DNA from: an uncultured Hyphomonadaceae bacterium
GTDB taxonomy: Bacteria > Pseudomonadota > Alphaproteobacteria > Caulobacterales > Hyphomonadaceae
Length of the DNA: 64,000 bases
Assembly: GCA_938084575.1 (NCBI GenBank)
Contig: CALKFG010000003.1
Span: 177,595 to 241,594, forward strand
Direction of reading: 5' to 3'
A model generated the notes under the pieces. The model had not been told where the DNA came from and did not search any database. It saw only the letters and a program-made list of their open reading frames with translations. This document shows positions 25,343 to 30,018 of this stretch, in pieces. Position 1 is the first letter of the stretch. Each line of letters opens with the position of its first letter. The translations under genes were made by a program, and so were the position numbers.

Positions 25343-26197
25343 TCAGCTGGTCGTTATATCCAGTCCAAGATCGAAATTTGGCGCTGAGTGTGTCAGGGCT
25401 CCGACCGAAATATAGTCGACTCCAGTTTCTGCGATGGCCGCAATCCGGTCCAGCGTAATGCCGCCGCTGGCCTCTGTCAGGCATTGCCCGTCAATCATGC
25501 TCACGGCCGTGTGCAACTGCTCGGGCGACATGTTGTCGAGCAAGACGGCATGAGGCTTGTGGCGCAGGGCTTCGGACAGCTGATCGAGCGTATCCACTTC
25601 GATTTCGATCATCCGCAGGTGGCCGGCATAAGCCTTTGCGCGGTCCAGCGCCGTGGCGATCGACCCGCTGGCGGCAATGTGATTGTCTTTGATGAGAATG
25701 GCATCGTCGAGGCCATAGCGGTGAGAGGTGCCTCCGCCACAGCGAACGGCTCGTTTCTCCAGCGCGCGATGTCCGGGGGTCGTTTTCCGGGTGCAGACAA
25801 TTTTAGCGTGGGTATGAGAGACGCGGTCTGTGTAAGTGCGCGTCAGCGTGGCAATGCCGGACAACCGTCCGAGGAAGTTCAGTACGGTACGCTCGGCAAT
25901 CAGAATAGACCGCGCTGACCCCGACAGCGTGGCGACGCTTTGCCCGGGCGTCACCGCTTCGCCATCCCCGGCCAGGATCTCTATCTGCACTGAAGGGTCC
26001 ACCAGTTTCAAACTGTAGCGGGCCGCGTCCAGTCCGGCCAGAACCCCGTGGCCTCGCGCGATGATATGGGCGGTCAGCTGCAGGGTCTCCGGCAATATCG
26101 CATCGCTGGTCAGGTCCCCGGCGCGACCAAGGTCCTCGCTCAGAGCCAGGCGAACGATCGGGTCGAGAATAATGTCGGGAAGAGGGGGCGGGGTCAT
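25343..26197 (-). CDS. nadC: Nicotinate-nucleotide pyrophosphorylase (carboxylating)
   Basis: Quinolinate phosphoribosyltransferase: converts quinolinate and PRPP to nicotinate mononucleotide, CO2 and PPi. 284 aa with EDLGRAGDLTSD near the N terminus, ERTVLNFLGRLSGIAT, CTRKTTPGHRALEKRAVRCGGG and LIKDNHIA, then the C-terminal EASGGITLDRI. Complete for the family. Its ATG overlaps the nadB stop as ATGA, so it is the last gene of the nad operon. Confidence 0.96.
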   Translation of the reverse strand: MTPPPLPDIILDPIVRLALSEDLGRAGDLTSDAILPETLQLTAHIIARGHGVLAGLDAARYSLKLVDPSVQIEILAGDGEAVTPGQSVATLSGSARSILIAERTVLNFLGRLSGIATLTRTYTDRVSHTHAKIVCTRKTTPGHRALEKRAVRCGGGTSHRYGLDDAILIKDNHIAASGSIATALDRAKAYAGHLRMIEIEVDTLDQLSEALRHKPHAVLLDNMSPEQLHTAVSMIDGQCLTEASGGITLDRIAAIAETGVDYISVGALTHSAPNFDLGLDITTS

Positions 26198-27750
26198 GCT
26201 GTAAGTTCACTCTCTGTCTGGCGGACGGCCTCGGCTTGGAGGAAGGTGCGCTGGGCGGTCTGGGACGTATCGGGAAAATCAGCGCGGTAATGCCCACCGC
26301 GGCTTTCTTCCCGGTTGAATGCGGCTTCGGCCATCAAGTGCGCCGTGATCAATTCACGCGCCGGGCCATAAGTCTCGCGCAGCCTGGCAATATCAGCTCT
26401 CAGCTCTGTCAGACCGGTCCGATGGCGGATGACGCCACAATGACGTGCCATACTCTCGCGCAGGGTTTGCAGGGGGGCATCCGGCAGATCGGACGACACC
26501 CGGCTGCGGCTGGCCCGTAAGGCGCGGCGATCACTGTCGCGCAGCCGATCGGCAATTCGTGCCGCCATAACGACGGCTTCGAGCAGAGAGTTGGACGCGA
26601 GCCGGTTGGCGCCATGTGCGCCGGTGCTGGCGCATTCTCCGCACACGCTGAGGCCGTCCAGGCTGGCTTTTCCCCAGATGTCGGAGAGAATGCCCCCCAT
26701 ATGATAATGCATCGCCGGTGCGACGGGAATAGGCTGGTATTGGGGATCAATTCCGGCCCGTTGGCAGGCGCCAAAGACAGTGGGGAAATGCTGGCGGATG
26801 GCGCCGCCGATCGCGTCGCGCGTATCGAGGAAGACCTTTCTTCCCGCCAGGATTTCGGCGTGGATGGCGCGGGCGACCTGGTCGCGCGGTGCCAGTTCAC
26901 TGTCCGGATGATAGTCGGCCATGAACGCGGCGCCGGTTTCATTGATCAGGATCGCGCCTTCACCCCGCAGCGCCTCCGTCGCGAGAGGGGCTGGATCGAG
27001 CCCGACATCCATTGCGGTGGGGTGAAACTGTACGAATTCGGGATCTGCAATCACCGCGCCGGTTTCGAAGGCCATGGCCAGTGCTTCGCCGCGGGCCCCG
27101 GACGGATTGGTCGTTACGCGAAACAATCCGCCGGACCCGCCGGTGCACAATATGGTTTCAGGAGCCGGGCACGCGCGGAGCTGTTGGTCTCTGCTTTTTA
27201 AAATGGCACCACAGATCCTGCCCTGGTCGTCCTGAAGCAAAGCAGCGGCACTGGCATTCTCGATCAGATCAATGTGCTCGGACTGGCGGACCGCGCGGGT
27301 CAGAGCGTCCATAATCGCCCGACCGGCCAGATCACCCGCGACACGTGCGACCCGAGGGTGAGAGTGGGCCGCTTCGAGGGACAGGGCCAGATCGCCGCTC
27401 GGGGTCCGGTCGAACGGAACGCCAAGGGCGATCAGGTCTCGGACACGGGCGGGTCCTTCGGATGCAATCAGCTGGGCGATAACCGGATCAACCAGGCCGG
27501 CACCGGCGGCCACGGTATCGGCGGCGTGCTGTTCCACGCTGTCATGTGGATGCAGCGCGGCCGCGAGACCGCCTTGCGCCCAGGCAGACGAGGCCGCCTG
27601 TCCCAGCGGTGCGGGGGTCACAATTGTGCAGGCCCGGGGGGCCAGGCGCAGGGCGAGAAAGAGACCCGCAAGTCCGGCACCGAGAATCAGAACGCGGTTG
27701 GTGTCGCGACCAGACTGGGCCACTTGGGAAATCACCCTGGTCGACGGCAT
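26194..27750 (-). CDS. nadB: L-aspartate oxidase
   Basis: FAD enzyme oxidising L-aspartate to iminoaspartate for quinolinate synthesis. 518 aa: FAD motif VLILGAGLAGLFLALRL (about 19-35), SSAWAQGGLAAAL, the HPTAMD substrate loop, and the succinate-dehydrogenase-like MGGILSDIWGKASLDGL and GANRLASNSLLEA motifs. The start shares one base with the preceding gene's stop (TGATG), implying coupling; downstream nadC overlaps by ATGA. Confidence 0.95.
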   Translation of the reverse strand: MPSTRVISQVAQSGRDTNRVLILGAGLAGLFLALRLAPRACTIVTPAPLGQAASSAWAQGGLAAALHPHDSVEQHAADTVAAGAGLVDPVIAQLIASEGPARVRDLIALGVPFDRTPSGDLALSLEAAHSHPRVARVAGDLAGRAIMDALTRAVRQSEHIDLIENASAAALLQDDQGRICGAILKSRDQQLRACPAPETILCTGGSGGLFRVTTNPSGARGEALAMAFETGAVIADPEFVQFHPTAMDVGLDPAPLATEALRGEGAILINETGAAFMADYHPDSELAPRDQVARAIHAEILAGRKVFLDTRDAIGGAIRQHFPTVFGACQRAGIDPQYQPIPVAPAMHYHMGGILSDIWGKASLDGLSVCGECASTGAHGANRLASNSLLEAVVMAARIADRLRDSDRRALRASRSRVSSDLPDAPLQTLRESMARHCGVIRHRTGLTELRADIARLRETYGPARELITAHLMAEAAFNREESRGGHYRADFPDTSQTAQRTFLQAEAVRQTESELTA

Positions 27751-28199
27751 CAGGAAATACCTTCAATCGCCCGGCGAAACAGAACCGGGGCGGTCGCCGC
27801 CGAGATCAGCGCCCCGTACATCAACGACGCGTCCTGTATGGTGAGGTTGAAATTATCGGGGACATAAATGAGGTCATCTGTCTTTTGTTCCAGAACCTGG
27901 TCAATTGTCGAGCGGACGGTCAGCTGCTTGCCGAAGCGACGCGCATGACATGACTGGACGACCACGCTGCGTCCCCACATGGCACACATCTCGACAGCCG
28001 TCAGTTCGCAGGCATAGCGGCCGCTGTCAGGATGGCTGGTGAGCTGCATGGTGCCTGTCATCAGGCATTGTCCATCGCGGTAGGGCTTGGTCTGAAAGGA
28101 CCATGATCCCAGCACGTCGAGCGGGTCGGTGGTCTGCGCCTGGGCTGTGGTAAGCCACATCATGGCGCCAATGCCTGACAGAAGGGGGCGCAGGGCCAT
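27750..28199 (-). CDS. Secreted protein of unknown function inside the nad operon
   Basis: 149 aa from the ATG at 28199, with CGGAGACCGT immediately before it; the track start at 28406 lies in nadA. Signal peptide MALRPLLSGIGAMMWLTTAQA-Q, then a single domain beginning DVLGSWSF with four cysteines (QCLM, YACEL, EMCAM, QSCH), enough for two disulfides in the periplasm, and strand-like motifs such as LIYVPDNFNLTI. It looks like a small beta-barrel/lipocalin-like fold but I assign no family. It lies between nadA and nadB, 73 bases after nadA and coupled to nadB (TGATG), so it is expressed with NAD synthesis genes; its role there is unknown. Confidence 0.7.
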   Translation of the reverse strand: MALRPLLSGIGAMMWLTTAQAQTTDPLDVLGSWSFQTKPYRDGQCLMTGTMQLTSHPDSGRYACELTAVEMCAMWGRSVVVQSCHARRFGKQLTVRSTIDQVLEQKTDDLIYVPDNFNLTIQDASLMYGALISAATAPVLFRRAIEGIS

Positions 28200-28272: not shown

Positions 28273-29412
28273 TTAAATGACCTCAATTTCCTTGGCCGCC
28301 AATCCCGTTCGAAACGCAAGCGGTGTCGACAGTTTCGGCAGGGCGAGCATCGCGTCAATGGCTGATTTAGCCCGCTGTCGTACCGCCTCGTCGATCTCAA
28401 CTTCATGGCGCATGTCGGTCAGGCAGGTATAAATGTTCTCGAGCGTGATCTGCTTCATGTGGGGGCACAAATTGCACGGACGCACAAATTCAACGTCCGG
28501 ATTTTCAGCGGCGACATTGTCACTCATCGAACACTCCGTCAGCAGGACAACTTTAGACGGGTTATGGTCCGACACGTAATGTGCAAGGGCGGCGGTCGAT
28601 CCGGCAAAATCCGAGACCTCCAGAACATCCGGCGGGCATTCGGGATGCGCCAGGATCATGACACCGGGATGGGCGTCACGCAGGGCCTGAACATCATCAG
28701 CTGAAAACAGTTCATGGACTTCGCAGGCCCCTGGCCAGGTGATGATGCGAATATCGGTCTGGCTGGCCACATTCCGCGCCAGATACTGGTCTGGCACCAG
28801 GATGACCGTGTCGGTATTCCAGTCCTTCGCGATTGCCTCGACCACCTGAACGGCGTTGGAACTGGTACAGGTGATGTGGCACTCTGCTTTGACGTCCGCC
28901 GTGGTGTTGACATAGGTGACAACGGGATAGGCGGGATATCGCTGCTTTATCAGGGCGACGTCCGCACCGGTAATGGAGCTGGCCAGCGAGCACCCGGCTT
29001 CAAGGCTGGGAATCAGCACAGTTTTCTCTGGAGCGAGCACTTTGGAGGTCTCGGCCATGAAGTGAACCCCGGCCTGGACGATAATGTCGGCGTCGACCTC
29101 GGCCGCCTCCCGGGCGAGCTGAAGGCTGTCGCCGCGAATATCCCCGACGAGACGAAAGATGTCCGGAGTCATGTAATTGTGGGCCAGGATCACGGCATTT
29201 TTTTCGGCCTTCAGCCGATTGATGGCCGCGACCAACGGCGCAATCGCCGGCCACTCCATGGGCGTGATGAAATCCGACGCCAATGGATAGAGGTGGTCGG
29301 TTTCGGCCTTGACCTGGCTGTTGTAGTCCAGCCCGCCGGGGCCATCCCGCGACGCACTGCGGCTCGGCGTTGGCGTTGGGCAGCCGGGGCCTGCATCAAT
29401 CAATCTGGCCAT
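28273..29412 (-). CDS. nadA: Quinolinate synthase
   Basis: [4Fe-4S] enzyme condensing iminoaspartate with dihydroxyacetone phosphate to quinolinate. 379 aa; three cluster cysteines in the usual contexts are SLEAGCSLA, WPGACEVHE and RPCNLCPHMK, and the motifs ILAHNYMTPDI, VQAGVHFMAETSKVL and the VTYVNTTADVKAECHITCTSSNA stretch support the call. The first 30 residues (Pro/Ser-rich) are a non-conserved extension, common in alphaproteobacteria. ATG 29412 has AGGAG 7 bases upstream. First gene of the leftward nadA-hyp-nadB-nadC operon, preceded by two palindromic sites. Confidence 0.96.
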   Translation of the reverse strand: MARLIDAGPGCPTPTPSRSASRDGPGGLDYNSQVKAETDHLYPLASDFITPMEWPAIAPLVAAINRLKAEKNAVILAHNYMTPDIFRLVGDIRGDSLQLAREAAEVDADIIVQAGVHFMAETSKVLAPEKTVLIPSLEAGCSLASSITGADVALIKQRYPAYPVVTYVNTTADVKAECHITCTSSNAVQVVEAIAKDWNTDTVILVPDQYLARNVASQTDIRIITWPGACEVHELFSADDVQALRDAHPGVMILAHPECPPDVLEVSDFAGSTAALAHYVSDHNPSKVVLLTECSMSDNVAAENPDVEFVRPCNLCPHMKQITLENIYTCLTDMRHEVEIDEAVRQRAKSAIDAMLALPKLSTPLAFRTGLAAKEIEVI

Positions 29413-29425
29413 GTCTACACTCCTG

Positions 29426-29446
29426 TTATGCTCTATTCGAGCATTA
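29426..29446 (-). promoter_or_regulatory. nad operon operator, proximal copy
   Basis: ATGCTC-N5-GAGCAT (29428-29444), a perfect inverted repeat with AT-rich flanks, 16 bases upstream of the nadA start and directly before its ribosome binding site. A related site with the same spacing lies 71 bases further upstream. NadQ or another NAD-responsive repressor of alphaproteobacteria would fit by context, but I cannot verify the motif. Confidence 0.55.
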
Positions 29447-29496
29447 GTGGTCGGGATCTCCGCTCAGCGGGGTGCTCCTCTGACCCGGACAACAAC

Positions 29497-29517
29497 TTAT
29501 GCTGAAACTGAGCAAAA
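29497..29517 (-). promoter_or_regulatory. nad operon operator, distal copy
   Basis: TTATGCTG-N5-GAGCAAAA: same half-sites, spacing and orientation as the proximal copy but less symmetric. On the coding strand both read T-x-x-TGCTC-N5-xAGCATAA. Centre-to-centre distance is 71 bases, near seven helical turns, which would allow cooperative or looped binding. Confidence 0.5.
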
Positions 29518-29602
29518 GGGGACATAGGGTCGCCGGCGGTATTTGGCAAGTCTGTTTCGGGTGCGCGTCTTGGCGGTGCCGCTGGTATTCTCGGTGCAGC
29601 GC

Positions 29603-29617
29603 TTAATCTCTGATTAA
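29603..29617. promoter_or_regulatory. AT-rich palindrome upstream of the 111-aa gene
   Basis: TTAATC-TCT-GATTAA, 66 bases before the 29683 start, in the divergent gap with nadA. Possible operator or promoter element; no known motif recognised. Confidence 0.3.
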
Positions 29618-29682
29618 TACAAAAAACCTTGCAACGGAACAAAACATGAATTTAAAACAAAATGGAACACAAGGAGAACAAT

Positions 29683-30018
29683 ATGCGTCAGATGAATTTT
29701 CGTGGATTGTCAGGGGAAGCTTATGGCTTCCGCCGTGTCGAACCCAATGCGCCTTGGGCCGCGGTGGCCGGTATCGCCCTTTTTGCGGCCCGTGGAACTT
29801 ATGGATGGCGGGTTGTGCGCGTCGCCAGTCTGCAGGGGAAGCTGCATGATGTGCAGCCAATCTGGGCTTTCGCCGATGCCCAGCGCTATGGGGCAAGGGC
29901 GGTGTTTATTCTGAATGAAAAGGATAGCGAGCGTCGCAGCAAAATCCTGGCAGACCTAACAGCGGGTCTTGATCCGGTGTGCGCGGACAACCGGACCGGT
30001 CAAGCCCTGGCGGCCTAA
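29683..30018 (+). CDS. Conserved-looking protein of unknown function
   Basis: 111 aa. The ATG at 29683 has an excellent AAGGAG 8 bases upstream, better than the track start at 29662. The protein starts MRQMNFRGLSGEAYGFRRVE, has one moderately hydrophobic segment (WAAVAGIALFAARG, too short and interrupted for a clear membrane helix) and a VQPIWAFADAQRYGARAVFIL block. No signal peptide or metal motif. The leader is AT-rich with A/C-rich repeats. Monocistronic: flanked by divergent nadA and a convergent DUF885 gene. I recognise no family. Confidence 0.65.
   Translation: MRQMNFRGLSGEAYGFRRVEPNAPWAAVAGIALFAARGTYGWRVVRVASLQGKLHDVQPIWAFADAQRYGARAVFILNEKDSERRSKILADLTAGLDPVCADNRTGQALAA

Follow-up and report, generated by a model that had tools for sequence, protein, structure and literature searches.

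Two conserved palindromes upstream of nadA in a Henriciella-like bacterium as probable operators of the NAD biosynthesis repressor NadQ

The genes for de novo NAD synthesis lie on the minus strand of the 64,000-nucleotide stretch of DNA that was analysed (the window), in the order nadA-orfX-nadB-nadC. The source of the window is a Henriciella-like member of the Hyphomonadaceae. The assignment of the nad genes is supported by Pfam, and both of the sites discussed here lie upstream of these nadABC genes. The features of the locus are the following:

25343-26197, minus strand: nadC, quinolinate phosphoribosyltransferase (Pfam QRPTase_C and QRPTase_N)
26194-27750, minus strand: nadB, L-aspartate oxidase (FAD_binding_2 and Succ_DH_flav_C; identified as nadB from its place between nadA and nadC)
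27750-28199, minus strand: orfX, between nadA and nadB, 149 amino acids, possibly exported (tblastn matches in 70 of the 80 related loci)
28273-29412, minus strand: nadA, quinolinate synthase (Pfam PF02445, E = 4.4e-107)
29420-29424, minus strand: AGGAG, likely ribosome-binding site of nadA, located by reading
29428-29444, no strand: proximal operator, perfect palindrome ATGCTC-TATTC-GAGCAT, predicted NadQ site that fits the NadQ consensus
29499-29515, no strand: distal operator ATGCTG-AAACT-GAGCAA, predicted weaker NadQ site
29522-29550, minus strand: predicted distal promoter CTTGCC-N17-CTATGT, located by reading, ending 6 nt before the distal operator

The proximal site, ATGCTCTATTCGAGCAT, matches the pattern ATGCTC-N5-GAGCAT without a mismatch and is found 15 nt from the nadA start, 3 nt from the AGGAG. 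The distal site, ATGCTGAAACTGAGCAA, has two mismatches and the same half-site spacing, and lies further upstream of nadA, 71 bases from the proximal site when measured from start to start. The original prediction of a palindrome just before the ribosome-binding site, followed upstream by a second, less symmetric copy with equal spacing, is thereby confirmed. In the entire 2.33-Mb assembly there is a single exact match to the pattern, and no match to a reversed control pattern. The perfect proximal site is more than chance. The window alone does not make the distal site significant, because matches with up to three mismatches are about as frequent in the window (38) as expected (32.8). The case for its reality is its conservation in relatives.

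The comparison set consisted of 80 related nadA loci, mostly of Henriciella, Hyphomonas, Ponticaulis and other Hyphomonadaceae, which together with the window gave 81 upstream regions. When the pattern was sought in these regions, as the original prediction had proposed, a proximal site with at most one mismatch was found near nadA in 77 of the 81. A second site, counted at up to three mismatches, accompanied it in 70 (70 of 81 regions, or 70 of the 77 with a proximal site). The second site lies 63-198 nt upstream of the first among the relatives, and the distance from the proximal site to the nadA start codon varies as well. The motif is rare elsewhere: the 938 kb of DNA flanking the same loci contain no exact match and five matches with one mismatch. 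At up to three mismatches the flanking DNA yields 729 matches, from which about 9 second sites are estimated to arise by chance, against the 70 seen.

The regulator to which these sites most likely belong is NadQ (COG4111). The regulon of this protein has been published for Proteobacteria, and that paper gives the operator consensus as ttATRCTCannntGAGYATaa and the core regulon as nadABC (Leyn et al. 2016, PMC5343134). The core of the consensus, ATRCTC-N5-GAGYAT, is matched by the proximal site without mismatch and by the distal site with two. Structures of NadQ are available (PDB 7q91-7q94), and the protein is described as ATP-responsive in the title of Minazzato et al. 2022; the notion of an 'NAD-responsive' operator, with which the two sites had originally been introduced, is therefore doubtful.

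Of 105 genomes in the family, 101 have a DNA-binding domain of the NadQ/NrtR type above the cut-off; the domain search gave no match in genome G001. Among twelve genomes compared for co-occurrence, the domain was present in all eight with sites and in none of the four without them. This is supporting evidence rather than proof, because no completeness values accompany these genomes and because the site-less relatives, four members of one related group (Robiginitomaculum and Hellea), count as few independent events. The nadA locus most similar to that of the window (L031, 87% identity) apparently comes from genome G031, whose protein aligns over nearly its full length with the NadQ structure 7q91 (E = 5e-79). 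The gene, nadQ, directly adjoins the twin sites in several members of the family, including G077. In the Henriciella relatives it is flanked by an HD-domain gene and a rhomboid gene, close to a gene for a Zur-type regulator, with argS, ispH and purB further on and, in several of them, ctrA nearby (the names argS, ispH, purB and ctrA were assigned by reading the sequences). Autoregulation of nadQ was sought in the Henriciella relatives, and no site with one mismatch or less was found near the gene except where nadQ adjoins nadA. At L141:8190-9880, nadQ overlaps the end of the HD-domain gene, which encodes a YfbR-like nucleotidase, and this pairing is conserved in the Henriciella relatives.

Neither the NadQ domain nor a NadQ protein was found in the window's own assembly (G000), the completeness of which is estimated at 96%. 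The nadQ neighbourhood was compared by means of protein queries; a DNA-level search with the 8.8-kb nadQ region gave nothing useful. All the orthologues tested from this neighbourhood, including those of argS, ispH, purB and ctrA, were absent from G000, where only distant paralogues were detected, and a nadA control query gave its match at 87%. Essential functions are expected of arginyl-tRNA synthetase, IspH and CtrA. Since such neighbours are missing together with nadQ, the absence of nadQ most probably reflects a stretch of the chromosome that was left out of the assembly and not the loss of the gene. A true loss, after which the operators would be decaying relics or would be used by another regulator, would agree with the failure to find either domain or protein in an assembly of this completeness, with the two mismatches of the distal site and with the missing -35 element before the proximal site. 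It is nevertheless judged distinctly unlikely: a gap is a much better account than a deletion of the simultaneous absence of neighbours such as argS, ispH and ctrA (as named by reading), the proximal site has remained perfect, and nadQ is present in the relative whose nadA is closest to that of the window.

The original prediction had left the choice of repressor of de novo NAD synthesis between NadQ and NrtR. The comparison with published motifs favors the first, whose consensus fits. Assignment of the sites to NrtR, a Nudix-related repressor, could appeal to the type of DNA-binding domain that NrtR and NadQ share, as stated in PMC5343134, and to the repression of nadABC by NrtR in Mycobacterium (PMC6800001). 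However, the NrtR motif is GTTTTCGA-N7-TCGAAAAC in Mycobacterium and ATA-N-TTTA-N3-TAAAA-N2-ATA in Streptococcus (PMC6800001), and both window sites, by reading, differ from these. Moreover, the protein of the relatives aligns with the solved NadQ over its full length, whereas other Nudix-type regulators align over the DNA-binding domain only. NrtR was consequently rejected as highly improbable. Its regulon in Mycobacterium and Streptococcus resembles the present one in repressing NAD biosynthesis, including nadABC in Mycobacterium, and in the related DNA-binding domain of the regulator, and is unlike it in operator sequence (PMC6800001). NadR of the Enterobacteriales likewise represses nadA and other NAD genes, but is reported in PMC5343134 to be absent from every lineage of Proteobacteria other than the Enterobacteriales.

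It is scarcely credible that the proximal palindrome folds instead into an RNA hairpin that regulates nadA translation from the leader or belongs to a riboswitch, and this reading was rejected. The palindrome does end 3 nt before the AGGAG ribosome-binding site. However, many relatives pair ATACTC half-sites with GAGCAT or GAGCAA, which breaks the stem but fits the NadQ consensus fully or almost so, and the palindrome is not at a constant distance from the start codon. In a search of 29350-29750 at E-values up to 5, none of the Rfam covariance models, including the NAD riboswitch families, matched, and an NAD riboswitch was dismissed on this result as well.

That NadQ governs nad genes in the family had already been published. 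Taken together, the motif, position, conservation and co-occurrence point to binding of NadQ at both sites. The two palindromes are thus very probably NadQ operators, and NadQ bound to them would block the transcription of nadA-orfX-nadB-nadC.

The surroundings of the sites suggest how such a block might operate. In the aligned upstream regions, CTTGA precedes the proximal site in 65 of 77, against a chance expectation of 1.2%, and its TTGA nearly always begins 28-29 nt ahead of that site. The proximal site is itself overlapped by a TATTAT- or TATAAT-like element in the aligned relatives. Before the distal site, CTTGC is found in 39 of 70 relatives, against a background of 1.7%. It appears from these alignments that most relatives have a separate promoter-like element at each of the two operators, a feature absent from the original prediction. 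The window has kept the distal promoter and lacks the proximal -35 element, which is likewise absent from L031. A scan with consensus promoters returned no promoter above threshold in this region, CTTGCC-N17-CTATGT included.

The distal operator is situated at the likely transcription start of CTTGCC-N17-CTATGT, and NadQ bound there would block initiation. In most relatives a second promoter has its -10 element overlapping the proximal operator, and bound NadQ would be expected to block this promoter too. In the window this second promoter has no recognisable -35 element, and the proximal site may serve mainly as a roadblock for transcription started at the distal promoter. A tentative model, put forward as a possibility with the balance somewhat against it, is that the nad operon of the Hyphomonadaceae is served by two promoters in tandem, each equipped with its own NadQ operator, and that in the lineage of the window the second promoter has been lost while its operator persists as a roadblock. 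Cooperation between the two sites is possible, though unsupported; a fixed helical phasing of the two was rejected, as a spacing of 63-198 nt is too variable.

The circuit agrees with the published NadQ regulon in its operator consensus, in its nadABC target and in the presence of the regulator in nearly all genomes of the family. It differs in having two operators per promoter region, each placed on its own promoter-like element in the relatives, an arrangement not encountered in the passages of the literature consulted. It also differs in that no extra nadD or nadE sites are proposed in the window genome. The four one-mismatch matches in the assembly all lie inside or at the edge of open frames, and with a single exact match besides, no wider regulon is proposed for this genome.

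The regulator, the motif and the target had already been published, and the addition made here is a modest architectural refinement; the window offers a solid, if unexceptional, instance of a control circuit already known. The published NadQ prediction is extended to about 80 genomes and backed by co-occurrence. The model of one operator per promoter is concrete and testable in cultured Henriciella and Hyphomonas, and the locus illustrates how, in an incomplete assembly, a regulator that was merely not assembled can be distinguished from one truly lost.

Two further open frames accompany the operon. The orfX product, for which a Pfam search gave no matches, has a signal-like N-terminus and is an uncharacterised protein kept inside the NAD operon. 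An open frame of 118 amino acids on the plus strand (29662-30018), also with no matches in a Pfam search, lies upstream of nadA in the opposite direction and has relatives in 15 of the 80 loci.
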